From positions 110,975 through 174,974 of IMG/VR virus record IMGVR_UViG_3300030518_000005: a stretch of DNA of 64,000 nucleotides; one strand, given 5' to 3'. The DNA is from a virus. Below are positions 4,113 through 58,702 of this stretch, piece by piece; position 1 is the stretch's first letter; each line of letters begins with the position of its first letter. The notes beneath the pieces are model-generated. The model ran no database searches. It was not told the origin of the DNA and worked only from the letters and a program-made list of their open reading frames with translations. Position numbers and translations under genes: made by a program.

Positions 4113-4186
4113 CTATGGATTCTAGCTTACTTTAAAACTATGATTGCCCAGGATTGTCACCTAGAACGCGTTTTATAGGGGCCGAA

Positions 4187-4414: not shown

Positions 4415-5814
4415 AAGGTAATTACCTTTATCTTAGATGTGATCTCTTCATAGAATGCGAGACGGTTGTTTGCGTGACGGGATAACATAGTTGACCCAGT
4501 CGGAATATAGTCAAGAACTAAGCACTTAGTCTTAGTGCCCTGCATACGAAGACCACGTCCAACAGCTTGAATCACAGGTCCTTTAGAAGCTACGAAGTTA
4601 GCCAGGATGAGACAGTCGACATTCTTTGTGTCTGTGCCTTCCCCAACCTTCCCATCCGTCCCGACCAATCCTGGGATCTTTCCGGCATTGAGCTGGTCGA
4701 CGTAATCTTGGGACTTCTTGTCTAGACCGGTAGCAAATGGAATACCTAAAGCTTTAGATAGTTCTTCTCCATGGGCAACTTCATCGACCAGGATGAGAAC
4801 AGCCTTACCAGAATCCATCATGGCTTTTGCATCGCCCTGGATCCGGTCCTTCATTGCTTGGTTATTCAGGACGTGTTCTTTGTAGGATTTAAGCTTATCG
4901 TCTTTAAAATCCCTACCGCCGGTAGCAACTTCACGAACGATGAATACGGGTTCGGCCAGGTATTTATTGTCCACGCCCCACTTGATGTCTCGGCGGATGA
5001 GTACGTTTCCGCACCCAGCCGTAATCATTATGTCTTTACCATCAGACCGATAATCTGTGGCGGTAAGACCGAATATCTTCCCGACTCCACTAAGGCCTTT
5101 AGCAATCTCGTAGAAGGTGGAAGCTGGTGTGTGGTGGGTCTCATCGACGATAACAAGTCCAAGATCGGCTTGTCTAAACTCTTCAACATATTTAGAGACA
5201 CTAGCAGCAATACCAACTGTAATGTCACAAATTTTCTTCTTTCCTCCGCCATAGAACCCCACTTTGTTCTGTCCGAACACGTCTACAAACTGGTTGTAGA
5301 ACTGCTTGGCAACCGAGTCAGAAGGGCAAACGATTAGCGCCTTCTTCTTATATTGTTGCACAAGATGGGTTGCGACTAGGGTTTTGCCGAGACCAGTGGC
5401 GAAATTAATCACTCCCCGGTAGTTGTTCAGCATCAAATCGACGGCTTCTTGTTGGTATGGGCGCAATGGAAAAGGCTTGTTCTTCCAAGGCAGAGCGATC
5501 TTAGAACCAGTCTGCTTACGGTTATCTACGACGGTCGCTGCGTTAAACTCCTGAGCGAAATGTTCCTGAAAATATCCGTAGAAGGAAGAGGTACAAACAA
5601 GATCATTATTGGACATCTCGAAAAGGTGCCCATGAACTTCGTTCTGAAGTCTTTTATAGTCCGGTGACTGACGTCCCCAGATTGACTTAGATAGACGACG
5701 AAGTTGATACTGTTTTGCCTTGTCAGTATAGGTTAACTCAGACTGTAGGGTCTGAATAAACTGAGCACTGGCTCCAGAGATCGTCATAATATCGTTTGCT
5801 AGATCTACTTGCAT
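4411..5814 (-). CDS. SF2 DEAD/DEAH-family helicase (UvsW-like)
   Basis: 467 residues. Walker A FATGLGKT is at 138-145, motif II DETH at 224-227, motif III TAT at 251-253 and motif VI QAVGRGLR at 416-423. The layout matches phage SF2 helicases such as T4 UvsW or T5 D10, which unwind branched DNA or R-loops and help switch from origin- to recombination-dependent replication. The ATG lies 6 nt after a TACAAT box. The gene is divergent from the replication cluster that starts at 5908. Confidence 0.9.
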   Translation of the reverse strand: MQVDLANDIMTISGASAQFIQTLQSELTYTDKAKQYQLRRLSKSIWGRQSPDYKRLQNEVHGHLFEMSNNDLVCTSSFYGYFQEHFAQEFNAATVVDNRKQTGSKIALPWKNKPFPLRPYQQEAVDLMLNNYRGVINFATGLGKTLVATHLVQQYKKKALIVCPSDSVAKQFYNQFVDVFGQNKVGFYGGGKKKICDITVGIAASVSKYVEEFRQADLGLVIVDETHHTPASTFYEIAKGLSGVGKIFGLTATDYRSDGKDIMITAGCGNVLIRRDIKWGVDNKYLAEPVFIVREVATGGRDFKDDKLKSYKEHVLNNQAMKDRIQGDAKAMMDSGKAVLILVDEVAHGEELSKALGIPFATGLDKKSQDYVDQLNAGKIPGLVGTDGKVGEGTDTKNVDCLILANFVASKGPVIQAVGRGLRMQGTKTKCLVLDYIPTGSTMLSRHANNRLAFYEEITSKIKVITL

Positions 5815-38775: not shown

Positions 38776-39402
38776 TTATGCAGTAAGGGTAGGAACACCA
38801 GAAGTCGGATTAAACGGGATCTCGTCAAGGCGTGAAGGAACGTTAGGCAGAACAAACGCACTAGTCGTTTGCTGAGCTCCATTAACGTCGTCAGCTTGCT
38901 GAGGAACGCGCTCGTCTTGGAAGCCGATTGCTTTAAAACTGAGTGTAACATTGGCAAGTGAGTCAACACGAAGTTCTTCTGCTCTGCTAGTGATCATAGC
39001 CCGTGCAGTGAAGAATAAGAGTTGATCTGTTGCAGAGTCACGCACTTCAATAGTGATATACTGTTGGAACAGGAAGTTAAGAGCGTCTGGTTGCCAGAGC
39101 TGTACACCAACTCCTTGTCCAGGAATATGCAAAGCACTGATAGTACCTTCGACGCTGATACGCTGAGGAACTAGTTCTGCCGGCATGTAATCATCGATAG
39201 TCATGATCTCAGATACTGTAGTGTTGATTCTCCACGATACGCCGAATGCGAAACCGCATGGCTTTCCGTTGATCTTCAGAACAGTACGAGCACCTGAAGC
39301 GTATTTAGCTGTCTGCTTTGTAGAAATGATCCCAGAGATATTCTGTGCTAGATTATCTGCGAGTCCTTGTACTAAGCCTGGTTGGTTATTAAAACCTGAC
39401 AT
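38776..39402 (-). CDS. Tail-tube-like virion protein (third copy)
   Basis: 208 residues. ARTVLKINGKPCGFAFGVSWRINTT aligns with the opening strands of the two tube-like proteins encoded upstream. It continues with a conserved-looking ISVEGTISALHI strand. The start follows TTGAGGTTTAG. It is likely a tube-end or tube-initiator paralogue rather than the main tube, because it is the most divergent of the three. Confidence 0.65.
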   Translation of the reverse strand: MSGFNNQPGLVQGLADNLAQNISGIISTKQTAKYASGARTVLKINGKPCGFAFGVSWRINTTVSEIMTIDDYMPAELVPQRISVEGTISALHIPGQGVGVQLWQPDALNFLFQQYITIEVRDSATDQLLFFTARAMITSRAEELRVDSLANVTLSFKAIGFQDERVPQQADDVNGAQQTTSAFVLPNVPSRLDEIPFNPTSGVPTLTA

Positions 39403-39409
39403 CTAAACC

Positions 39410-40093
39410 TCAAGTATTTTGTTGACCAGTACCTGAGAAGTTAGCTACGAAGCTATCTTCGTCTGCGTACAGAGCAACAAAGTTAAAACGCTGAATCGCT
39501 GCGCCTTTTTTAGTTATACTAAAGTCAGCTTGAGTGATTCTGCAAGAACGAAGATTGGCCACACCAATGATGTTTCCAGTCTGTGTTGAATCGCCGGTAA
39601 TTGCATTAAGAACATTAGTGACATCATTACCGAGCTGTTGATCAGTTGAAGAGCTGTTTTGAGGAGCTGGAATCTTCTGATAAACTTGAATGTCAAAAGT
39701 AGTACCGTTTTGAAGCTTGCTTGGGTCCATGTTCTCGTTTGGACGACCATCATTTCCTACGCCGTTAGCAGCGAGGAAGCTTCCAAGTCCGCCGCCCCAA
39801 GCTGCGCCCCAGTTACCAATACCGTTACCAGCATCGTTAGGAGTGATCAAGCCAGGAGCTACTGCACCAATGTTCGAGTGAGCATCTTTAGCGTAGCGAA
39901 TTACTGTGAAGGAGCCAGTCACAGAGTAACCGAGAGGCTCGACTGACGAGCCTTCGTACATCCCAAGAATTTTGGGTGTTTGAGTGAGAATAGATACAGA
40001 GTAAGAGAGATCAGTACAGAAGGCCATAGTCTTGCCGTTCAAGACAACCTTTGCGTTAGCACCTGTAATGAAGAATGGGCGAACTGCGGCCAT
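39410..40093 (-). CDS. Tail-tube-like protein (second copy)
   Basis: 227 residues. FITGANAKVVLNGKTMAF and YSVTGSFTVIRYAKD match the neighbouring protein at 40112 closely, so the pair arose by duplication. The ribosome-binding site AAGGAG is 8 nt before the ATG. Tube proteins stack inside the sheath. Which copy is the major tube cannot be told from sequence alone. Confidence 0.72.
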   Translation of the reverse strand: MAAVRPFFITGANAKVVLNGKTMAFCTDLSYSVSILTQTPKILGMYEGSSVEPLGYSVTGSFTVIRYAKDAHSNIGAVAPGLITPNDAGNGIGNWGAAWGGGLGSFLAANGVGNDGRPNENMDPSKLQNGTTFDIQVYQKIPAPQNSSSTDQQLGNDVTNVLNAITGDSTQTGNIIGVANLRSCRITQADFSITKKGAAIQRFNFVALYADEDSFVANFSGTGQQNT

Positions 40094-40111: not shown

Positions 40112-40675
40112 TTACGACAAGTCTGTATCGCCAGAGTTCGACGCTTCGAAGCTGTCGTCACTAGCAAGAATTCCAACGAACGAAAGACGATCAACCAAGA
40201 TACCGCGTTTGTTCAACGCTGCGCTCTTACGGTTGAAACGGCAGTCAGCGATCGTGATGAACTGAACAGCATCAGTAACCTGAGCAGTTCCGCCACCAGC
40301 CGTTGCGCCAGTCTGTGTTTTTTGGAATACGGCGAGGTCCCATGTTTGCGAAAGCAAAATGTTACCTGGGTTAATTTCAAAACTGCCGTTTCCGCCAGTA
40401 GTGTAGTTAACTTCACCAAGACCGTTACCAGTCGAGTTCGTTCCGGGCATACCGTTTTGGTTTGCGATAGCGGTATAACGAACAACGCTTAACTCTCCTG
40501 CAACAGAGTAGTTAACCGGTTCGTTCGACACTGCTTCGTAACGACCCATAGTTTCGATCGGAATGGTGTCTACCGATACTTGATAAGAGACATCCGAAGC
40601 ATAAGCAAACGTCTTACCGCCTACTTTAATCTTCGCATTCGCACCTGTGATAAATGAGGGCATCTTTGCTGCCAT
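40112..40675 (-). CDS. Tail-tube-like protein (first copy)
   Basis: 187 residues from MAAKMPSFITGANAKI. The start at 40675 is chosen because AAAAGGAAAAAGT precedes it; the open frame extends upstream only through unsupported codons. It is homologous to the 39410 protein. It lies next after the sheath gene, separated by a terminator, the usual sheath-tube order. Confidence 0.75.
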   Translation of the reverse strand: MAAKMPSFITGANAKIKVGGKTFAYASDVSYQVSVDTIPIETMGRYEAVSNEPVNYSVAGELSVVRYTAIANQNGMPGTNSTGNGLGEVNYTTGGNGSFEINPGNILLSQTWDLAVFQKTQTGATAGGGTAQVTDAVQFITIADCRFNRKSAALNKRGILVDRLSFVGILASDDSFEASNSGDTDLS

Positions 40676-40770
40676 ACTTTTTCCTTTTGGTCTTGTGGTT
40701 GACCAGTACCATCCATTTTTTGAGGCTGCACTATGCAACCCATGAGAATACTATACACCAAACTAAGTTA

Positions 40771-40830: not shown

Positions 40831-43071
40831 TTATGTTGACGAACTAGCTCTTTGCAGAGTGATGTTAGCCAAGATAAAGTCGATACCTTCAACAAGCTTA
40901 ACAGTTACCGATACATTGATCGTGTTTCCGTTGATCTGAACTACAAGGGCTTTGTAGCCGTTTTTCGCGTCAGAAGTAGAAACCGTGATTCCTTGTGCCA
41001 GGTAAGTAGCCAAGATAGCTGCGCAAGTCGATTGAACTTCGACAGCGTTCACAGTGTTCTTCAGACCAATGTAGATGTTCTCTAATTGGTTACGGAAGTC
41101 ATAAGCAAGGACATCGGAAGCGTAGAGAACGTGGGCACGGTTGTATACCCAGTTTCCATCTTTACCGTAGGTCGTGTTATCGACAACGAGGCGGAATCCA
41201 CCAGTTTGTGGTGCTTCCCAGAACGTAACGCCATTTTGGATAGCGTCATCGTATGCGACATCTGGATCGAAGTCGATAACAATGTTCTGCTCAGCAGTCG
41301 AGAGCAATTGACCAGTCTGGCGGATACCAGACATGTTGAAATATTTGAATGTCATCGGGTTACCGACAGGCGAACCGCCGCGAGCACCAGCGAGCAAACA
41401 AGCTCCAGCCCAAGGTTGGAACCACTGGATGTTACCAGCAGAATCAGCTTGACGGATATCTTGGATGACCATCTGTTGACGTGCGTCAGCAGTAGTAGCG
41501 ATCTCAGATTTACAGTTTGCGTACGTGTCCTTCATCGACAAGTAACCTTGACGCTCAGACTTTTTCTTAGTAGTCGCCATCAACGAGCAGTGAGTTTTCA
41601 CAGCTTGGTGAACAGCAGCAATAGTGTAAGTCGAAGACGGGTCAGTAACTTCATCAAGGATGTCTTGTGAAGCATCACGCGAGAACAAAGGAACAACCGC
41701 GTTAACGCGGAATTTCTCAAACTTGCTCAATGCGTTAACGATGTCAGCAGAAGCAGTTGCTCCAAGAACTCCACCAGTGAGGTAGAGAGCGTTTGGAACG
41801 CCTTGTTGATCTGGAAGACCAACAGTTTTTACTGCAGTTTGCGAAGCAGAAACCGAAGGAACCAGGTTAACTTGTGTGCTTGCAGCGAAGAAGCCAACAA
41901 CTTCACTTGCATCCATTTTGATGCGAGCAGGTTGTTGAGCAGTTGCGCCGCTGTACAAAGCGCCAACAGCTGAAACTTGGTCGAGAACAGTGATCGGTTG
42001 AAGACCGATTTGAACGCTCTCTACTGAAGCACTCCATCCTGACAGAGTGTTGATGAAAGAAGCAACAGACTGAATAGAAGGGAAGTTAGCGATTGGGAGG
42101 CTGTACGAAGCAGGAGTAGCACCAGTTTGAGTCAGCGTGATCGCAGTAGCTCCGATAGTAACTGAAGCAGCAGTTACGCCACCAGTTGCAGAACGACCGA
42201 TCGACAAAGGAATGTCTCCACCAACAGTTGCGCTCTCAGTAAGAGTCGAAACAGGGTTTGCAACAACCAGAGTAGCCATAGGCTCAGAAGCAGCAGCAGC
42301 GAAAGCGTTAGACGAAAGTCCGATGCTTGTGCTGATGTTTCCTGAACCAAGCTGCATCGAACGACCGTAACCATTACGTTGTGGGTTCGAAGCAATTGCT
42401 TGAGTCAAAGTGATTGTGTTAGCTACAGTTCCAGCAGCAGCAACCATAGTGTTTGCGCCGAGTGCAGTGTTCAATGCCGTAGCAAGAGCAGCAGCAGAAG
42501 CGTAAGAGTCAGCAGCAACAGTCGCAGTAGCAGGAGCACCACCGTTCAACGAGTAAGCGAGAGTATCATTTGTTCCGGTTGTAACAACAACAGGGAAAGT
42601 GATAACAGCGCTCGTCAGAACAGCTTGTCCTTCTGGAGTGATAGTGTTTTTGAAAGTAACAAGGTTACCTCCGACGCCGTATGCTTGTGACTGCAACATT
42701 CCGAAAGGAGTTGCGCCAGCAGCAATCGGATCAAGCGTTGCTTGAGTAGAAGCGTTTGTCTTGTAGATGTACACAGCTTGTGCGCCACCCGGAATTGCGC
42801 CATCAGCGCCCGGAGCAAACAAGAAGTTACATGCATCAACGATGTTACCAGAACCGTACTTAGCCAAAATTTGGTTGTATTGATCTGGACCGAAAACGTT
42901 GTTTGCAAGATTCGGTTCTGCGGAGCCAGGAGCACCCGCGTCTGCTTCTCCAAAGAGAGCGATGATTCCGGTAGGGCTTAACGGGAAGCCTCCGCCGAGA
43001 TCAATCTCTACTTGTGAGTAAGCACCTGGTTTGTAAATGGTAGCACCATTAAAGCTTACATTAATTGCCAT
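40831..43071 (-). CDS. Tail sheath protein
   Basis: 746 residues. The N-terminal GATIYKPGAYSQVEIDLGG and SPTGIIALFGEADAGAPG are the typical opening of contractile sheath proteins. The C-terminal third (WVYNRAHVLYASDVLAYDFRNQLENIYIGLKNT, then a final strand) is the conserved sheath core. The middle carries a variable Ala/Thr-rich insertion. The leader has AGGAGA before the ATG and a TTATAAT box 37 nt upstream. Confidence 0.88.
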   Translation of the reverse strand: MAINVSFNGATIYKPGAYSQVEIDLGGGFPLSPTGIIALFGEADAGAPGSAEPNLANNVFGPDQYNQILAKYGSGNIVDACNFLFAPGADGAIPGGAQAVYIYKTNASTQATLDPIAAGATPFGMLQSQAYGVGGNLVTFKNTITPEGQAVLTSAVITFPVVVTTGTNDTLAYSLNGGAPATATVAADSYASAAALATALNTALGANTMVAAAGTVANTITLTQAIASNPQRNGYGRSMQLGSGNISTSIGLSSNAFAAAASEPMATLVVANPVSTLTESATVGGDIPLSIGRSATGGVTAASVTIGATAITLTQTGATPASYSLPIANFPSIQSVASFINTLSGWSASVESVQIGLQPITVLDQVSAVGALYSGATAQQPARIKMDASEVVGFFAASTQVNLVPSVSASQTAVKTVGLPDQQGVPNALYLTGGVLGATASADIVNALSKFEKFRVNAVVPLFSRDASQDILDEVTDPSSTYTIAAVHQAVKTHCSLMATTKKKSERQGYLSMKDTYANCKSEIATTADARQQMVIQDIRQADSAGNIQWFQPWAGACLLAGARGGSPVGNPMTFKYFNMSGIRQTGQLLSTAEQNIVIDFDPDVAYDDAIQNGVTFWEAPQTGGFRLVVDNTTYGKDGNWVYNRAHVLYASDVLAYDFRNQLENIYIGLKNTVNAVEVQSTCAAILATYLAQGITVSTSDAKNGYKALVVQINGNTINVSVTVKLVEGIDFILANITLQRASSST

Positions 43072-49003: not shown

Positions 49004-49267
49004 ATGGATAGCATGGACATATTGAAGAAAATCGTAGATTCCGAGGGCTCTTGTACCCTGTGGGCCAAACCGTCCATCTGTAAGTCCTGTCCGTTGTCTA
49101 AGCTCAAAAAGAAATCAAACGGCTCATTCTTGTCATGTGTGGAAGCCCTTGGGGTAGAAGATCTATCTGAAGAGCAGGCCGACGCTAAATATAAAGAAGT
49201 CGCCTCACGTATACTGATTGATAAAGCTGTTGATGATTTGCTTGGAGAGCCAGATGGCACTAAGTAA
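49004..49267 (+). CDS. Cys4 small protein (first of a pair)
   Basis: 87 residues. Four cysteines in C-x8-CxxC...C spacing (SCTLWAKPSICKSCP, then SC) could bind zinc or an iron-sulfur cluster. It is followed by a helical tail (YKEVASRILIDKAVDDLL). The downstream overlapping gene encodes a protein of the same plan, so the two look like paralogues. Function unknown. Confidence 0.65.
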   Translation: MDSMDILKKIVDSEGSCTLWAKPSICKSCPLSKLKKKSNGSFLSCVEALGVEDLSEEQADAKYKEVASRILIDKAVDDLLGEPDGTK

Positions 49268-49499
49268 AAATGACTCAACAATTTTAGAACAGATTGCTTC
49301 CCTAGACGGGAAGTGCATGGAATCGCAAAGGTGTAAAGTATGTCCGTTCAAAGCAATGTGTCTCCCGGAGTTTCTGTACCCGAACCCACCGTCACCAGCA
49401 CAAAGAGCAAAAATGGCTTTGGATGTCATAACACATCATGCTCTTGTGGACGAGCAGGAACCCCTGGACATCGAGCAGCATCGATGGGACAAGCAGTAG
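49254..49499 (+). CDS. Cys4 small protein (second of a pair)
   Basis: 81 residues from MALSKND, overlapping the upstream stop. CMESQRCKVCPFKAMC repeats the cysteine pattern of the preceding gene, again followed by a helical region (AQRAKMALDVITHHALV). The stop TAG is followed at once by an in-frame TAA, a tandem stop that would guard against amber suppression. Confidence 0.65.
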   Translation: MALSKNDSTILEQIASLDGKCMESQRCKVCPFKAMCLPEFLYPNPPSPAQRAKMALDVITHHALVDEQEPLDIEQHRWDKQ

Positions 49500-49604
49500 T
49501 AACTGACTTATTCCTTCGACATAAGCAAGATCAGGCGAAGTATCATCTCATTACTTTTATGTATCGTTTATTGAAGATCAAGTGAGAGTGTCTTGGGAGA
49601 TGGT

Positions 49605-49868
49605 ATGGCGTTCGACACAGAAGACATTAGAAGAGAACAACTAGTTGTTGACAAGATCAAATCTGAACTACGTTTCGTAAGCTGTGACGATATCTCTTAT
49701 CTTCAGGGCACACTAGGCGGACCTAAGAACAAAATGCGCCGGGAACAGAAGTACGGCTACAACCTAAGAACATCTACATACGATAAGCTGCTGAAAGACC
49801 TATACGAACAAAAGCTAGGCGATAAGCTTATAGAAGAGATGCTTTCCGAAGAACCTGATAAAATATAA
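49605..49868 (+). CDS. Unrecognised 87-residue protein
   Basis: The start MAFDTED is chosen because GGGAGATGGT precedes it. The protein is mainly helical and charged, with a C-terminal LYEQKLGDKLIEEML amphipathic helix. Not recognised. Confidence 0.65.
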   Translation: MAFDTEDIRREQLVVDKIKSELRFVSCDDISYLQGTLGGPKNKMRREQKYGYNLRTSTYDKLLKDLYEQKLGDKLIEEMLSEEPDKI

Positions 49869-49897: not shown

Positions 49898-50029
49898 ATG
49901 AAAGATCAAAAGCGCCCTGTTGTTATTCGTTTCAAGAACAATAAAGAGGCAATCGATCTGTACTATGCTATTGACCTAAAGTTCTTTCTTGCCAAATTGC
50001 TATACACACATAAGTCGAAGCTAGTATAA
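49898..50029 (+). CDS. 43-residue microprotein (LxxL motif type)
   Basis: The AAAGGAAGTACTT ribosome-binding site stands directly before the ATG. A basic strand (PVVIRFKNNKEA) is followed by a hydrophobic helix DLKFFLAKLL, a weak form of the motif seen in neighbouring microproteins. Confidence 0.55.
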   Translation: MKDQKRPVVIRFKNNKEAIDLYYAIDLKFFLAKLLYTHKSKLV

Positions 50030-50037
50030 CTAGGTAC

Positions 50038-50223
50038 ATGACGCGGATTGGGCGGTACCAGAAGATACAAGATCTACAGAAGTTGGAACTACATTTCCGA
50101 CTATTGTATTTTCTTCGTGACCTTGGCATTCGCTCATCATTTGAACCTGCGGCAGCAACCTGGACTGACTATATGGCTCGACTTGGCAAGATGATTGCAG
50201 AGGATGCATGTTCAACAGATTGA
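50038..50223 (+). CDS. 61-residue microprotein with LLYFLRDLGI motif
   Basis: The start lies 7 nt after TATAAC, and TAGG precedes it. The helix FRLLYFLRDLGIRSS matches the LxxLG(I/L/V) motif of the minus-strand array. The C-terminal helix has WTDYMARLGKMI. Its end overlaps the next gene. Confidence 0.6.
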   Translation: MTRIGRYQKIQDLQKLELHFRLLYFLRDLGIRSSFEPAAATWTDYMARLGKMIAEDACSTD

Positions 50224-50489
50224 CGTCCGATCAAGTTACTTCAGTGCATCATGTCTATATGCTATTGAGGCGTCTTAGAGTCATAGGTACTATTGAGACC
50301 GTTACAAAGAGAATACAACTCTCAGAAGACGGTGGGCCAGTTCGCTACCAGCTCACTCTTGTATCCTATGATCCTTCTACTAAAGGGTGTTTAACACCTT
50401 ATGAAAAGGCCGAGGCTTACTTTGAAGCGTCGATGGCCCTTGAACGCCATATTCAAGACTTAACGTCGTCTCAGCGTGCCAAGAAGTAG
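50208..50489 (+). CDS. 93-residue microprotein (motif plus beta region)
   Basis: GAGGATGC precedes the ATG, which lies inside the upstream gene. VYMLLRRLRVIGTIETV resembles the array motif, followed by a beta hairpin (RIQLSEDGGPVRYQLTLVSYD). The stop is TAG, with TGA two codons later. Confidence 0.55.
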   Translation: MFNRLTSDQVTSVHHVYMLLRRLRVIGTIETVTKRIQLSEDGGPVRYQLTLVSYDPSTKGCLTPYEKAEAYFEASMALERHIQDLTSSQRAKK

Positions 50490-50528
50490 ACAAGCTGATT
50501 CTTTTGCAGCTTACACATTTCAACTCAA

Positions 50529-50636
50529 TTAGTAACCTGATAAGCTTGAAACAGCAGGGCGTGCGCTCTTGATTCCAAGCTTCGCGAGTAAGATCTTTAG
50601 CTTGGTTGACTTGCGTCGATCGACGTAATCATCCAC
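50529..50636 (-). CDS. 35-residue microprotein with KLGIKSAR motif
   Basis: It starts with GTG in a GTGGATGA overlap with the upstream microgene. LKILLAKLGIKSARPAV contains KLGIKSAR, identical to the protein at 50920, but four of the eight codons differ synonymously. This supports real coding by purifying selection. Confidence 0.6.
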   Translation of the reverse strand: MDDYVDRRKSTKLKILLAKLGIKSARPAVSSLSGY

Positions 50637-50847
50637 GTCTGGTCACCGGTATTAGCTCAATATAATCTATCTGAAGACTTACGCTGGCGAATCTAATCCA
50701 GTTCTCTTTCGGCTCTGGCGGGTTAATCATTTTAGTCAGAGCCGAAAATGCATGTTTCTTATGATAAAAATCAGTGATGATGTTCAGTTGATACAGAATA
50801 CGAAACAGCTTCAGAGTGGAAGTGCTATCGAACATATTTGTCAGCAT
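50629..50847 (-). CDS. 72-residue microprotein with LYQLNI motif
   Basis: AGGAGAAATACGA precedes the ATG. LKLFRILYQLNIITDF is the array motif with Asn in the Gly position, followed by a beta-rich C-terminus (WIRFASVSLQIDYIELIPV). The stop overlaps the GTG of the next microgene. Confidence 0.65.
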   Translation of the reverse strand: MLTNMFDSTSTLKLFRILYQLNIITDFYHKKHAFSALTKMINPPEPKENWIRFASVSLQIDYIELIPVTRRG

Positions 50848-50919
50848 TCGTATTTCTCCTAAGCGCCCGCGCTTCGACGGGGCCCCTTGCCAGATGCAAT
50901 ATAATGAGTTAGAACTAAG

Positions 50920-51168
50920 TTACTTAATATCTTTCCATAGTTTGAGCTGAGTGCTATCAAACGTAACAGACTTCAAAATTGTGTCAAGTCCTTCAAACTT
51001 AAACATGCTGAAGCTGCGAGCACTCTTAATACCAAGCTTGCTGAGCAAACCGCAAAGCTTTTCCTCAGGGCGTGGATGTCCATAGAACATCTCTACCTCA
51101 AGTGCCTTGCTCAAAGAAGCAATGCTCTCGCCCATTATCTGATCAAATGTCTTTGGAACAATCGCCAT
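50920..51168 (-). CDS. 82-residue microprotein with LLSKLGIKSAR motif
   Basis: The ATG is exactly 6 nt after TATAAT with no Shine-Dalgarno. The helix EKLCGLLSKLGIKSAR carries the array motif. The C-terminal half is a basic/hydrophobic alternation ending LKLWKDIK. Confidence 0.7.
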   Translation of the reverse strand: MAIVPKTFDQIMGESIASLSKALEVEMFYGHPRPEEKLCGLLSKLGIKSARSFSMFKFEGLDTILKSVTFDSTQLKLWKDIK

Positions 51169-51174
51169 GCGGCG

Positions 51175-51180
51175 ATTATA
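51175..51180 (-). promoter_or_regulatory. TATAAT box 6 nt before the 51168 ATG
   Basis: TAGTATAAT, six bases (CGCCGC), ATG. Confidence 0.5.
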
Positions 51181-51474
51181 CTATTCGCCGTCGCCCGGGT
51201 GACGATCACTGTACATCGAGTCTACCGGGTGATTCGGTTGTCCGATGCGTGCTTGCTTGGTGTGTTCTGCTTTCGGTCGGCTACCGCCGCCGAAATCGTG
51301 GAGAGTACCCTGACTGCCGTGGTCAACTGCGAGTTGACCCGTCATCGAGTGTCCTTGAAATACTTCATACGGTCGTGTGTCCGCTGTGTGCGGAGCAACC
51401 GAGTCTGCATCGTGGTCGTTAGTGTTCTTATGTAAAGACCACTGACCGTTTGCTGAGAGTGCCAAGTATTCCAT
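51181..51474 (-). CDS. Unrecognised 97-residue hydrophilic protein
   Basis: The ATG is 6 nt after a TATAAT box. After a short LALSANGQWSLHK opening, the protein is hydrophilic, rich in His, Asp and Gly, and probably disordered. It lacks the LxxLG motif of its neighbours. Coding is supported by the promoter spacing more than by the protein. Confidence 0.5.
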   Translation of the reverse strand: MEYLALSANGQWSLHKNTNDHDADSVAPHTADTRPYEVFQGHSMTGQLAVDHGSQGTLHDFGGGSRPKAEHTKQARIGQPNHPVDSMYSDRHPGDGE

Positions 51475-51480
51475 ATCTTT

Positions 51481-51486
51481 ATTATA
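51481..51486 (-). promoter_or_regulatory. TATAAT box 6 nt before the 51474 ATG
   Basis: TAGTATAAT, six bases (AAAGAT), ATG. Confidence 0.5.
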
Positions 51487-51499
51487 CTAGAACTTTGGG

Positions 51500-51706
51500 C
51501 TATCGTCCGCCGTCGTTAAACCATCTGTCGCTCGCCCACTCAACTCCGGCCTTGCTCAGCTGATCTCTAGCTTCCTGAATACCGAGCTTGGCTAAGACGA
51601 TGATCATGTTGAAGCGCTGGTTCGCATCCCCGATGATACGGGTCCGGAACTCATCGTCGGTCTCGCCAATATACCTGTAGTGGCTCCACTTCTGAAACAA
51701 GCTCAT
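51500..51706 (-). CDS. 68-residue microprotein with LAKLGI motif, last of the overlapping chain
   Basis: The start MSLFQKW overlaps the upstream stop (ATGA). FNMIIVLAKLGIQEARDQL is the array motif. The open frame extends further upstream but through other microgenes, so 51706 is the natural start. Confidence 0.65.
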   Translation of the reverse strand: MSLFQKWSHYRYIGETDDEFRTRIIGDANQRFNMIIVLAKLGIQEARDQLSKAGVEWASDRWFNDGGR

Positions 51707-51849
51707 AGCTCGGTCACCGAGAAGCCCTTGATGAGGTTCAGCTGAAACATTAGGTTCAGAAGCCGTGGAAGAGCACGCGTGCAGTGAAGAGTACTGACTC
51801 CTCGATACTCGGAGTCTTTGAACTCTATAGAGATGCCGTGAAGTCTCAC
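51703..51849 (-). CDS. 48-residue microprotein with LMFQLNL motif
   Basis: It starts with GTG in a GTGA overlap and ends in an ATGA overlap. LPRLLNLMFQLNLIKGF carries the motif after a short strand (GISIEFKDSEY). Confidence 0.55.
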   Translation of the reverse strand: MRLHGISIEFKDSEYRGVSTLHCTRALPRLLNLMFQLNLIKGFSVTEL

Positions 51850-52019
51850 GATACACCTGTGTCATAGTAGTCGTCCGGCTCCCAGTACGGGTCAAGACGG
51901 TGAGGCCTGTTCCCGTGGAGAAGTTTATGCAAGAGCTTGATGAGCGGAAGTGCCTTGACATTGATCTCGGTGATAGGTGCTCCGACGAGGTCGTCGCACG
52001 AGCAAGGAATGTAGCTCAT
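51846..52019 (-). CDS. 57-residue microprotein with LLHKLL motif
   Basis: It starts in an ATGA overlap and ends in a GTGA overlap. LPLIKLLHKLLHGNR is a degenerate form of the motif. It has an N-terminal CSC and an acidic Tyr-rich C-terminus. Confidence 0.55.
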   Translation of the reverse strand: MSYIPCSCDDLVGAPITEINVKALPLIKLLHKLLHGNRPHRLDPYWEPDDYYDTGVS

Positions 52020-52165
52020 GGGAACTCCACATGTACTTCGGTGCAGCGGCCAGATCGGTCCCGATGGTAGACGATGCTGTAGGACGGCATGGCCTTGAGT
52101 TTACCCAAGATATTCCATAGGTCGACGAAGTGTGAGAACTCCTCAGGAGTAAGGACGTGGATCAT
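52016..52165 (-). CDS. 49-residue microprotein
   Basis: ATGA overlaps at both ends. A helix (FVDLWNILGKLKAM) and a beta hairpin (YSIVYHRDRSGRCTEVHVEF) repeat the helix-hairpin plan seen in other members. Confidence 0.55.
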   Translation of the reverse strand: MIHVLTPEEFSHFVDLWNILGKLKAMPSYSIVYHRDRSGRCTEVHVEFP

Positions 52166-52416
52166 GCTATCCTCACGCCAAGTTGAAGGAGTAGATAGAG
52201 AAGTGGAGCCGTCGAGTCCACGATCGATCGCATCTCATCGAGGCGGGCCGAGGTCTGTCTTTGCCCGATGAATCGCTGGTAGAGCGAAGAGTAGAGGGCC
52301 TGTTGTAGCTGCGGAAGTTTGGACTCGTGAGCACGATGAGGAACCACGAACGAGATGTCGACGTTTCCATAGTTCATCTCAATTTGACAGGTGAGTGGGC
52401 GTTCGGCTACTACCAT
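52162..52416 (-). CDS. 84-residue microprotein ending in LLLQLGV
   Basis: The ATG lies inside the end of the preceding microgene; the stop TGA overlaps the next ATG. The last residues LLYLLLQLGVRIA carry the motif at the very C-terminus. The first part has CQIEMNYGNVDISFVV, likely beta. Confidence 0.6.
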   Translation of the reverse strand: MVVAERPLTCQIEMNYGNVDISFVVPHRAHESKLPQLQQALYSSLYQRFIGQRQTSARLDEMRSIVDSTAPLLYLLLQLGVRIA

Positions 52417-52568
52417 GATGTGGTCCCAGAGTAGGAGAGGGTCTGCCCGTCAAAGTGAATGTTGTGGACGTCGTTGGAGTTCATGACGAGTGGAGCGGAT
52501 AGGCCCAATTGTTTGAGGAACATGTAGAGCTGAGAGTAGTGTTTTAGTTTAGTCATGTAGTCATTCAT
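52410..52568 (-). CDS. 52-residue microprotein with FLKQLGL motif
   Basis: It starts in an ATGA overlap (a second in-frame ATG follows four codons later) and stops at TAG inside the next gene's start. LYMFLKQLGLSAPLV is followed by NIHFDGQTLSYSG, a short hairpin. Confidence 0.6.
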   Translation of the reverse strand: MNDYMTKLKHYSQLYMFLKQLGLSAPLVMNSNDVHNIHFDGQTLSYSGTTSW

Positions 52569-52786
52569 AGGTGAAGGCCCAGTTTAATCAAGATTATTAT
52601 GAGGCTAGCGGGGGCCATGTTTGTGGAGATGTAGTGGAGCCCGTTGGCCGCGACGGAGGCGCGGACAGATAGTTGTGCGCCTGATGAGTGAAAGCGGTAG
52701 ACCTGTGAGTTCTGGATTTTGTCCTTGTAAGGAGCGAAGTCCTCGAATTGGCGCTTGGTGAGGGTGGCGTGGTGGTTTTTCTTCAT
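52565..52786 (-). CDS. 73-residue microprotein ending in LIKLGL
   Basis: ATGA overlaps at both ends. The protein ends in LIIILIKLGLHL, the motif at the C-terminus as in the 52162 protein. The N-terminal half is basic and aromatic. Confidence 0.6.
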   Translation of the reverse strand: MKKNHHATLTKRQFEDFAPYKDKIQNSQVYRFHSSGAQLSVRASVAANGLHYISTNMAPASLIIILIKLGLHL

Positions 52787-52941
52787 AATTTAAGTTGGTC
52801 CTGGTTGGTCCATTTAACGATGAAGCGGTCTTCAAATGTGATGTTGATGATGTTGAGTGTAGCGAGTAGTACTAGTAGGTTCCGCTTGTGGGCGGGGACC
52901 AGATATAGATCATCATTAAGGAAATCAAATGTGAGTTTCAT
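52783..52941 (-). CDS. 52-residue microprotein, first of the overlapping chain
   Basis: The ATG is 7 nt after TATAAT. The plan is strand (KLTFDFLNDDLYLV), helix (NLLVLLATLNI), strand (INITFEDRFIVKW). It ends in an ATGA overlap. Upstream in-frame codons lie in the promoter. Confidence 0.6.
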   Translation of the reverse strand: MKLTFDFLNDDLYLVPAHKRNLLVLLATLNIINITFEDRFIVKWTNQDQLKL

Positions 52942-52948
52942 CAGAAAA

Positions 52949-52954
52949 ATTATA
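52949..52954 (-). promoter_or_regulatory. TATAAT box driving the microgene chain
   Basis: GGTATAAT 7 nt before the first ATG of an eight-gene overlapping chain (52941 to 51500). It seems to be the only promoter of that chain. Confidence 0.5.
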
Positions 52955-53241
52955 CCTATAGAGAAAAGGGCCAGGTGGTACATTGTGCCTATTAGGGTTG
53001 GAAGGTGGCGGGGCCTGTTTTATAGGAAAAAGCTTATGTACACGGAGTAATGACGGCGGGTACCGACCTGAAAATAGGGGTTCCCTTTTAAGCTGAGGAT
53101 AGCGGGCGCCAGTTTCCCGAACCTATAGAGTAGCATAACGAGGCAATGATAAAGACTTTGCTAAGTTATGATGCACGATCTGAAACTAATGAGTAACATG
53201 ATGAGGCAATTAAGCCGAGTCAATATCTGGGAGGATATGTT
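52955..53241. other. Divergent regulatory region
   Basis: 287 nt without a supported gene between the leftward microgene chain and the rightward accessory genes. It contains GAACCTATAGA (near 53119, repeated at about 53974), AGGCAAT twice (53141 and 53204) and the block ATCTGAAACTA...GTAACA...AGGCAAT, which recurs before the paralogous gene at 56668. Likely promoter and regulatory sites for the gene at 53242. Confidence 0.5.
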
Positions 53242-53703
53242 ATGAGCAAGATGTCACAAAAAGAAGCGGCATTCGCAGCTATCATCAATGTCATGGGCGA
53301 GCAAGACGGTGTGTATGCACCTACTAAGGAACAGCGCGCTCAAGTGAATGCGATCCTCTTTGAGGGTTTCCGCTCAGGCAAGATCGAGATTGATACTGAG
53401 AAGAGCGATAGCGACCTGAAGGGTTATGTGTCTGGCTTACAGAGCAACTGGCTTCGCAAGGACAAGCGCTTGAACGGTGGTGTTCAGTATACCGCTAAGA
53501 ACCCTGGCTCGCGCGCTGGTTCGACTGATCCCCAGCTGAAGGCGATGCGCGCTCTGATCACGACCCTGACTACTGATCAAGAGAAAGCTGAAGTTCAAGC
53601 TTACATCGATGCACGAGTCGCTGAGCTGAACGCAACGAAGGTCGCCAAGACTGTTGACTTCTCTGCTCTGCCTGCTGATCTCGCTGCTAAGTTCTCTAAG
53701 TAA
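53242..53703 (+). CDS. 153-residue protein, first paralogue
   Basis: CTGGGAGGATATGTT gives a strong ribosome-binding site. The protein is about 75% identical by eye to that at 56668, sharing blocks ILFEGFRSGKIE, YVSGLQSNWLRKDKRLNG, KNPGSRAGS, PQLKAMRALI and VDFSALPADLAAKFSK. It is helical and charged with basic loops, compatible with a DNA-binding or abundant early protein. No family recognised. Confidence 0.8.
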   Translation: MSKMSQKEAAFAAIINVMGEQDGVYAPTKEQRAQVNAILFEGFRSGKIEIDTEKSDSDLKGYVSGLQSNWLRKDKRLNGGVQYTAKNPGSRAGSTDPQLKAMRALITTLTTDQEKAEVQAYIDARVAELNATKVAKTVDFSALPADLAAKFSK

Positions 53704-56667: not shown

Positions 56668-57132
56668 ATGTCTAAAGTGTCGCAAAAAGAAGCAGTATTC
56701 CAAGCCGTTACTAACGTTTGCGGCCAAGCTGATAGCTATAGCCCAACCAAAGAAGAGCGCGTTCAAGTGAACGCTATCTTGTTCGAGGGTTTCCGTAGCG
56801 GAAAGATCGAGCTCGAGAAGACAGACATCACTGACAGCGACTTGAAGTCGTATGTCTCTGGTCTTCAGTCGAATTGGTTGCGTAAAGACAAACGCCTTAA
56901 CGGCAATGTCGCTTACGTTGCTAAGAACCCTGGATCACGCGCTGGCTCTGGCGACCCGCAACTCAAAGCAATGCGCGCTTTGATCTCGACGTTGACTACC
57001 GACGAAGAGAAAGCTGAAGTTCAAGCTTACATTGACGCTCGTGTTAGCGATATCAATGCAACTAAGACTAAGAAAGTCACAGTTGACTTCTCAGCTCTTC
57101 CTGCTGACCTTGCTGCTAAGTTCTCGAAGTAA
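56668..57132 (+). CDS. 154-residue protein, second paralogue
   Basis: CGGGAGGTTTTCC precedes the ATG. It is closely similar along its whole length to the protein at 53242, including the C-terminal VDFSALPADLAAKFSK. A hairpin terminator follows, as after the first copy. Duplicated together with part of its upstream region. Confidence 0.8.
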   Translation: MSKVSQKEAVFQAVTNVCGQADSYSPTKEERVQVNAILFEGFRSGKIELEKTDITDSDLKSYVSGLQSNWLRKDKRLNGNVAYVAKNPGSRAGSGDPQLKAMRALISTLTTDEEKAEVQAYIDARVSDINATKTKKVTVDFSALPADLAAKFSK

Positions 57133-58152: not shown

Positions 58153-58213
58153 AGCAAAGGGTCAGACCAAACATTGATCTGATTTTATGGATGGTTGTTA
58201 CTGGGAGGTAATT

Positions 58214-58702
58214 ATGGATTCTTTATTTGAAAAAGATTTCACTTGGGACAATAGAAAGCATTTTCTTTATCTACTGCCACATTTGAGTCAAGTAAAGTTC
58301 GCTCTATTTTGCGCCAATCAAGTTAAACATCTCATGGAAGATGAAAGAAGTCTTAAAGCGTTAGAAGTAACTTCTCTCTTCATGGAAGGCAAAACTACAA
58401 AAGAGGAATGTAAGGCTGCTGATGCTGCTGCTTATGCTGCTTATGCTGCTTATGCTGCTGATGCTGCTGCTTATGCTGCTTATGTTGCTTATGCTGCTGT
58501 TGCTGTTGTTGCTGATGTTGCTGCTGATGCTGCTGATGCTGCTGATGCTGCTGCTTATGTTGCTTATGCTGCTTATGCTACTGCTTATTATGCTACTTAT
58601 GCTGATCTTAAACAAGATCAAATGACCTATTTAAGATCTCTTGTAGTTGACTCCTTATCTTTTGAAGATGAAGAATGTTGGCTGTTAACAACTATTTTCT
58701 GA
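58214..58702 (+). CDS. 162-residue protein with Ala/Tyr/Asp repeat region
   Basis: CTGGGAGGTAATT precedes the ATG. A folded N-terminal part (about 1-65) is followed by ~60 residues made almost only of Ala with Tyr, Asp or Val every third position, then a C-terminal SLSFEDEECWLL. The repeat is encoded by GCT-rich 3- and 9-nt units, so its length can change by slippage. Such repeats form helices with a Tyr/Asp stripe. Confidence 0.7.
   Translation: MDSLFEKDFTWDNRKHFLYLLPHLSQVKFALFCANQVKHLMEDERSLKALEVTSLFMEGKTTKEECKAADAAAYAAYAAYAADAAAYAAYVAYAAVAVVADVAADAADAADAAAYVAYAAYATAYYATYADLKQDQMTYLRSLVVDSLSFEDEECWLLTTIF
58418..58605 (+). repeat. Coding GCT/TAT/GAT repeat tract
   Basis: A tract of GCTGCT followed by TAT, GAT or GTT repeated about twenty times inside the gene at 58214. 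In-frame, so copy-number changes keep the protein intact. Confidence 0.8.

Follow-up and report, generated by a model that had tools for sequence, protein, structure and literature searches.

The stretch of virus DNA analysed here (the window) is 64,000 nucleotides long, corresponds to bases 110975–174974 of the 174,974-base IMG/VR record IMGVR_UViG_3300030518_000005, and carries an array of microgenes whose products mostly have one short helix motif in common. The window codes for a contractile tail with sheath and baseplate, a DnaB-type helicase and endonuclease VII, and the nearest named phage by tail proteins is Myxococcus phage Mx1 at about 30% identity, named phages being all remote. Eight open reading frames (ORFs) of 48–84 residues run along the minus strand from 52941 to 51500, and neighbouring frames overlap by ATGA in five cases, by GTGA in one case and by 7 nucleotides in one case, as a sequence-only reading of this DNA had described. 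The first gene of the operon, m1 (52 residues; 52783..52941), has the motif RNLLVLLATLNI and a leaderless promoter-like GTATAAT at 52955. The motif lies at the extreme C-terminus in m2 (73 residues; 52565..52786; SLIIILIKLGLHL) and m4 (84 residues; 52162..52416; PLLYLLLQLGVRIA), and reads QLYMFLKQLGL in m3 (52 residues; 52410..52568). It is weak in m5 (49 residues; 52016..52165; DLWNILGKLKA) and fits less well in m6 (57 residues; 51846..52019), which has a CSC...LLHKLLH scaffold; in m7 (48 residues, GTG start; 51703..51849) it was seen by eye as LLNLMFQLNL. In m8 (68 residues; 51500..51706) it reads MIIVLAKLGI, and the head of this protein, GETDDEFRTRI, has counterparts in two relatives; a baseplate origin of this head was sought in the large proteins of the phages and was not found.

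Three more minus-strand ORFs and three plus-strand ORFs named in the same reading are also present. On the minus strand, m9 (82 residues; 50920..51168) carries CGLLSKLGIKSAR together with capsid-like segments, m10 (72 residues; 50629..50847) carries LFRILYQLNI and has orthologues in seven other phages, and m11 (35 residues; 50529..50636) carries KILLAKLGIKSAR. On the plus strand, p12 (43 residues; 49898..50029) has orthologues in several relatives, p13 (61 residues; 50038..50223) has the motif LLYFLRDLGIRS and a promoter-like GTATAAC, and p14 (93 residues; 50208..50489) has the motif VYMLLRRLRVIG. The listed genes thus hold, but neither the proposed boundary of 49898–52941 nor the completeness of the list does. 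A further motif-bearing microgene of 33 residues, MGQAVV...LITFMYRLLKIK, lies on the plus strand at 49484..49585 and is conserved in relatives, and ORFs tagged by the motif occur elsewhere in the 175-kb record. Two conserved genes without the motif also lie among the microgenes, one of 97 residues on the minus strand (51181..51474) with its own promoter-like signal at 51487 and one on the plus strand at about 49605–49868.

The earlier view that these are real coding genes is borne out by orthologues conserved across phages and by low ratios of nonsynonymous to synonymous substitution rates (dN/dS). Amino acid identity between orthologues of different phages is roughly 20–65%, mostly 30–45%. 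For pairs with enough change for computation, dN/dS is 0.07–0.39, showing purifying selection on the tested members, which include p12, p13, p14, m10 and a further two microgenes. One gene of the close pair of relatives L013/L014 reaches 0.91. The peptide KLGIKSAR occurs in both 50920–51168 and 50529–50636, with codons differing at four places, all of them synonymous, as had been noted. When a tight chain is defined by overlaps of 1, 4, 7 or 8 nucleotides between ORFs of at least 45 codons, the real minus strand has a longest chain of 8 genes and the plus strand one of 4, compared with 1–3 in 20 shuffles. Such chained overlapping frames would fit translational coupling.

The common motif is a 14-residue helix, (A/S)xxxLhx(L/F)LxKLG(I/V), of which LCGLLSKLGIKSAR is an example. 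Over 263 members, the information is limited to positions 0–16, (A/S)xxxLhx(L/F)LxKLG(I/V)(K)SA, and the flanking columns contain nearly nil. A weight matrix of 14 columns, trained solely on the microgenes of other phages, gave 16.5 bits per sequence compared with 7.8 for shuffled training. The training set was chosen by eye from ORF lists, and the informative tests are therefore the ones made outside that set, on the window itself and on the loci L040–L066. In the window, 12 microgenes are the top 12 of 438 ORFs by this matrix, in agreement with the idea of a shared motif. The loci L040–L066 have up to 24 tagged members per 16 kb compared with 0.0–0.6 after shuffling, and three long records contain 27, 40 and 28 tagged ORFs compared with 0, 2 and 2. 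The assertion that most members bear the motif applies to m5 and m6 in weaker form (shuffle p of 0.004 and 0.0025, respectively), whereas m7 alone is not significant (p of 0.11). Some isolated matches that lie antisense to real genes are probably spurious. The motif is at chance level in 130 kb of Mx1 and in a 28-kb region of T4, is not above chance in large virion proteins, and was not found in some remoter relatives (L053, L058, L064 and L065). The possibility that the motif is a copy of the N-terminal helix of the capsid protein was rejected, as the weight matrix scores negative there.

With the motif masked, no two microgenes of the same phage are similar at E<0.01, whereas 128 pairs between phages are; a narrower mask leaves three weak within-phage pairs at E<0.02. 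Because within-phage similarity is confined to the motif and orthologues are found in other phages, the shared part is a short helix module of 14–17 residues on mostly unrelated small proteins, not the trace of recent tandem copies. The proposal of recent tandem duplication, under which neighbours would be alike over their lengths, is not supported by this result and was rejected. The module is N-terminal, central or C-terminal, lying no more than 10 residues from the C-terminus in 65 of 261 members, and also stands beside zinc-ribbon-like, membrane-like or virion-derived segments. The microgenes fall across phages into 26 shared clusters and 168 singletons, indicating rapid turnover of members. 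No recurring family was found across the members in Pfam, PHROGs or PADLOC, in keeping with the suggestion of an undescribed family; hits to phrog_3776 and weak hits to phrog_752 are limited to virion-headed members. AlphaFold models predict a helix-strand-strand-helix arrangement for p14 and a helix-strand-strand arrangement for m10, with predicted local distance difference test (pLDDT) scores of 84 and 78, respectively. Neither model matches a Protein Data Bank entry at E<=0.001, and that of p14 has no match among viral models at E<=0.001. Since the p14 and m10 models are a helix followed by strands, the helix may in some members belong to a small fold. The helix plus beta-hairpin plan suggested earlier therefore fits these two models but is not general, since the motif also lies at extreme C-termini and beside other types of segment.

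A subset of the regions flanking the helix consists of segments that match the phages' own virion proteins. Comparison of 309 motif-masked microgenes with the large proteins of three phages, 358 in number, gave 27 matches at E<0.01 and, in two shuffles, 0. Each of the 27 fell on the major capsid protein, the tail sheath or one of the tail-tube-like paralogues. Hidden Markov models (HMMs) of the segments show that residues 1–20 of the sheath start four microproteins (E of 2e-9 to 5e-5), that tube residues of about 25–62 occur in four (E of 1e-9 to 8e-4), that the capsid N-arm, residues 54–80, occurs in three including m9 (E of 9e-5 for m9), and that residues 236–273 of the middle of the capsid protein occur in four or five; against five-fold shuffled sets, these models gave nothing below 0.1. 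In the window, the sheath gene (40831..43071) and the tail-tube-like gene (38776..39402) are on the minus strand, the latter with paralogues at 39410–40093 and 40112–40738, and it is microgenes of relatives that mimic these two proteins. The product of 38776..39402 is probably the tail tube, judging from the adjoining sheath gene and PHROG hits; a firm family match was not obtained. Among relatives, the sheath is about 601, 747 or 950 residues long and is apparently altered between residues 140 and 270.

These segments are exchanged between orthologues. Orthologues of m6 have a tube head in L042 and L045, the sheath N-terminus in L055 and a capsid segment in L056, and none of these in the window. 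In m9-type genes, the capsid segment follows the motif in the window and in L005 and precedes it in L056. The C-terminal segment of m9 is the one that matches capsid residues 54–80. Its N-terminal segment resembles capsid residues 158–174, with three capsid proteins as the top 3 of 358 (E of 0.009–0.077), a likeness that is suggestive only. A microgene at 5648–5917 of L040 has a tube segment (4e-7) and, by eye, a sheath-like start that is not significant (HMM E of 1.9). As an observation and not a test, m9-type tails (VESL...HLKLWKK) are at several positions nearer to outgroup capsids (RVESL...HIKFWKK in SPO1) than to those of their own clade (QAESL...NLKMWPA). Capsid-type peptides of two relatives have weak matches in SPO1-like and Bacteroides phage records, where most named products are capsid protein. 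The head maturation protease of L025 (987–2657, minus strand; record bases 80987–82657) has near its C-terminus a peptide equal to capsid residues of about 33–71, and this common peptide may be an address for head assembly.

Divergent myophage contigs have the array at the same place, with differing members. A search with the conserved Cys-rich gene next to it (49257–49499) gave 9 divergent contigs besides near-identical ones, with a microgene chain beyond the Cys-rich gene and usually counterparts of p13 and p14, and a search with the 153-residue flanking gene (53242–53703) gave about 20 further relatives; a nucleotide search of phage records with the array gave no match. The contig of one relative had been placed in a bin with a Cytophagales metagenome-assembled genome, which is the sole hint at a host. 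The flanking gene has an 80% identical copy near the array (53242–53703 and 56668–57132, both plus strand; 153–154 residues), and several relatives also have duplicates. In L013 (10375–11846) and L014 (7124–9198), a collagen-like, tail-type gene pair lies between the Cys-rich gene and p12, and in L010 (12000–14100) the array is broken up by long low-complexity and simple-repeat stretches.

A sequence signal recurs ahead of array genes. GTATAAT followed by ATG 6–7 nucleotides on occurs 9 times in the window compared with 0.97 expected, for example at 4113, 19910, 51181, 51487 and 52955, all on the minus strand. It marks m1, m9, the motif-free gene at 51181..51474 and, with one change, p13; at the array start it has the form GTATAAT-N7-ATG (52939..52955, minus strand). 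In L005, L009, L013, L014, L016 and L017, array genes carry counterparts of the signal, which is promoter-like, probably of a leaderless type in wide use by the phage. Elsewhere in the window, a small-gene region includes a 171-residue ORF (58187–58702, plus strand) with an Ala/Tyr-rich repeat (AAYAAYAADA), and ARAGORN places a tRNA with a CUA anticodon, labelled Pyl, at 2412–2486 on the minus strand. Because of this anticodon and because, of 33 long frames in the window, just 2 end in TAG, it is possibly an amber-suppressor tRNA.

These observations lead to a tentative hypothesis, to which we give a probability of about 0.42, that the products of the array are microproteins of an arms race which the helix docks to a common partner, and that some of them mimic virion proteins. 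By analogy with the internal proteins of T4, the helix would be a putative docking tag bringing the tagged proteins to one partner of host or phage origin, and the variable heads would carry out arms-race functions. Virion-derived heads may then occupy capsid-, sheath- or tube-binding surfaces of host immune sensors or of assembly partners belonging to the phage itself or to its rivals. The fuller picture of a myophage plug-in system, in which tens of microproteins per genome would reach one hub through the helix and some would be exchangeable decoys or assembly competitors made from the phage's own virion, is doubtful at present. Several points weigh against the docking hypothesis. The helix-then-strands models of p14 and m10 are equally compatible with a small fold and with a free docking helix. 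A recognised virion-derived head is found in only about 15 of the 309 tagged proteins, and in the window only in m9. Such heads would suit assembly competitors or virion addresses equally as well as sensor decoys, and self-mimics could just as likely damage or regulate assembly of the phage that encodes them. Furthermore, GTATAAT-N6-ATG also lies ahead of replication, lysozyme and tail genes and therefore does not date expression; the idea that the array is expressed late only was dropped, as the signal precedes genes that we take from their sequences to encode thymidylate kinase, dUTPase and lysozyme.

The virion segments also invite the explanation that the microproteins are accessory components incorporated into the virion, with these segments or the helix as an address into head or tail, possibly for injection. 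The N-terminal peptide of the capsid protein recurs in the head maturation protease and in m9-type microproteins, as expected for a head-assembly address, the tail genes are on the same strand as the minus-strand array, and the T4 internal proteins set a precedent of diverse proteins with only the targeting sequence conserved (PMC3012670). However, in most members no virion segment is recognised, the helix has no fixed terminus, large virion proteins lack the motif beyond chance, and the promoter-like signal is not confined to structural genes, so that we regard this explanation as unlikely. The leucines at i, i+3/4 and i+7 would equally befit an oligomerisation element through which the microproteins co-assemble into a mixed complex, with ratios set by translational coupling, as the strict operon overlaps and the many co-encoded members also suggest. 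The strongly conserved fixed Lys and Gly-Ile, which generic packing does not need, the tagged genes lying singly around the genome and the fast turnover of members make such a complex rather improbable.

The microproteins could instead be extremely diverged copies of a single helix plus beta-hairpin fold, the motif being the fold core and having no common partner. Both AlphaFold models begin with a helix followed by strands, and the tube-derived segments are probably beta-hairpins too; but one member in four has the motif so near the C-terminus (10 residues or fewer) that no hairpin could follow it, conservation is nil outside the motif, and virion segments lie on either side of it, arguing that a single fold is quite improbable. 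Pieces of three virion genes, swapped heads and many lineage-specific singletons might also be the debris of recombination, with a repeated helix-coding element joined to gene fragments of no lasting function. This is disfavoured as very improbable, given the purifying selection, the coupled start-stop overlaps, the recurring promoter-like signals and the orthologues at 30–45% identity in many phages.

If the helix is a docking tag, as we favour, its partner would explain together dozens of genes of unknown role per genome, and if the heads derived from the virion serve as decoys, the phage would have in them a direct answer to immunity that senses capsid and tail proteins. The targeting sequence of the T4 internal proteins is an N-terminal encapsidation signal. 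These proteins, IPI, IPII and IPIII, are diverse and variable, have a role in an arms race and have only the capsid targeting sequence in common (PMC3012670). They resemble the array proteins in being an otherwise diverse set with one short common sequence, whereas the array helix can lie anywhere in the protein, its carriers are far more numerous and some have virion segments. The host takeover module of SPO1 comprises 26 clustered phage genes whose products are directed at the host (PMC6873191), and is like the array in being a phage gene cluster, the comparison being made at the level of the cluster and not gene by gene. We know of no shared short motif or virion-derived segments in that module. 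Host immune sensors bind the capsid (CapRel and Lit) and the tail tube (DSR2), and DSAD1, a phage inhibitor of DSR2 defence, competes with the tail tube (PMC11087589). The putative array mimics differ from DSAD1 in being segments of capsid, sheath or tube themselves, joined to a helix tag, and their sensor is hypothetical. The tail assembly blocker Tab is a prophage-encoded defence protein directed against the tape measure protein (PMC10884400); it is like the proposed mimics in targeting virion assembly and unlike them in not being a tagged family of many members. Hub-binding short linear motifs, such as sliding-clamp binding peptides, place one motif on many unrelated proteins. The array motif is by comparison a longer helix, nearly all of its carriers are microproteins, and its hub is hypothetical. 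We know of no phage system in which dozens of unrelated microproteins share one helix, nor of exchangeable virion peptides of the phage's own on such a scaffold, and so the combination of a modular helix with self-derived virion segments is, to our knowledge, a new kind of system.

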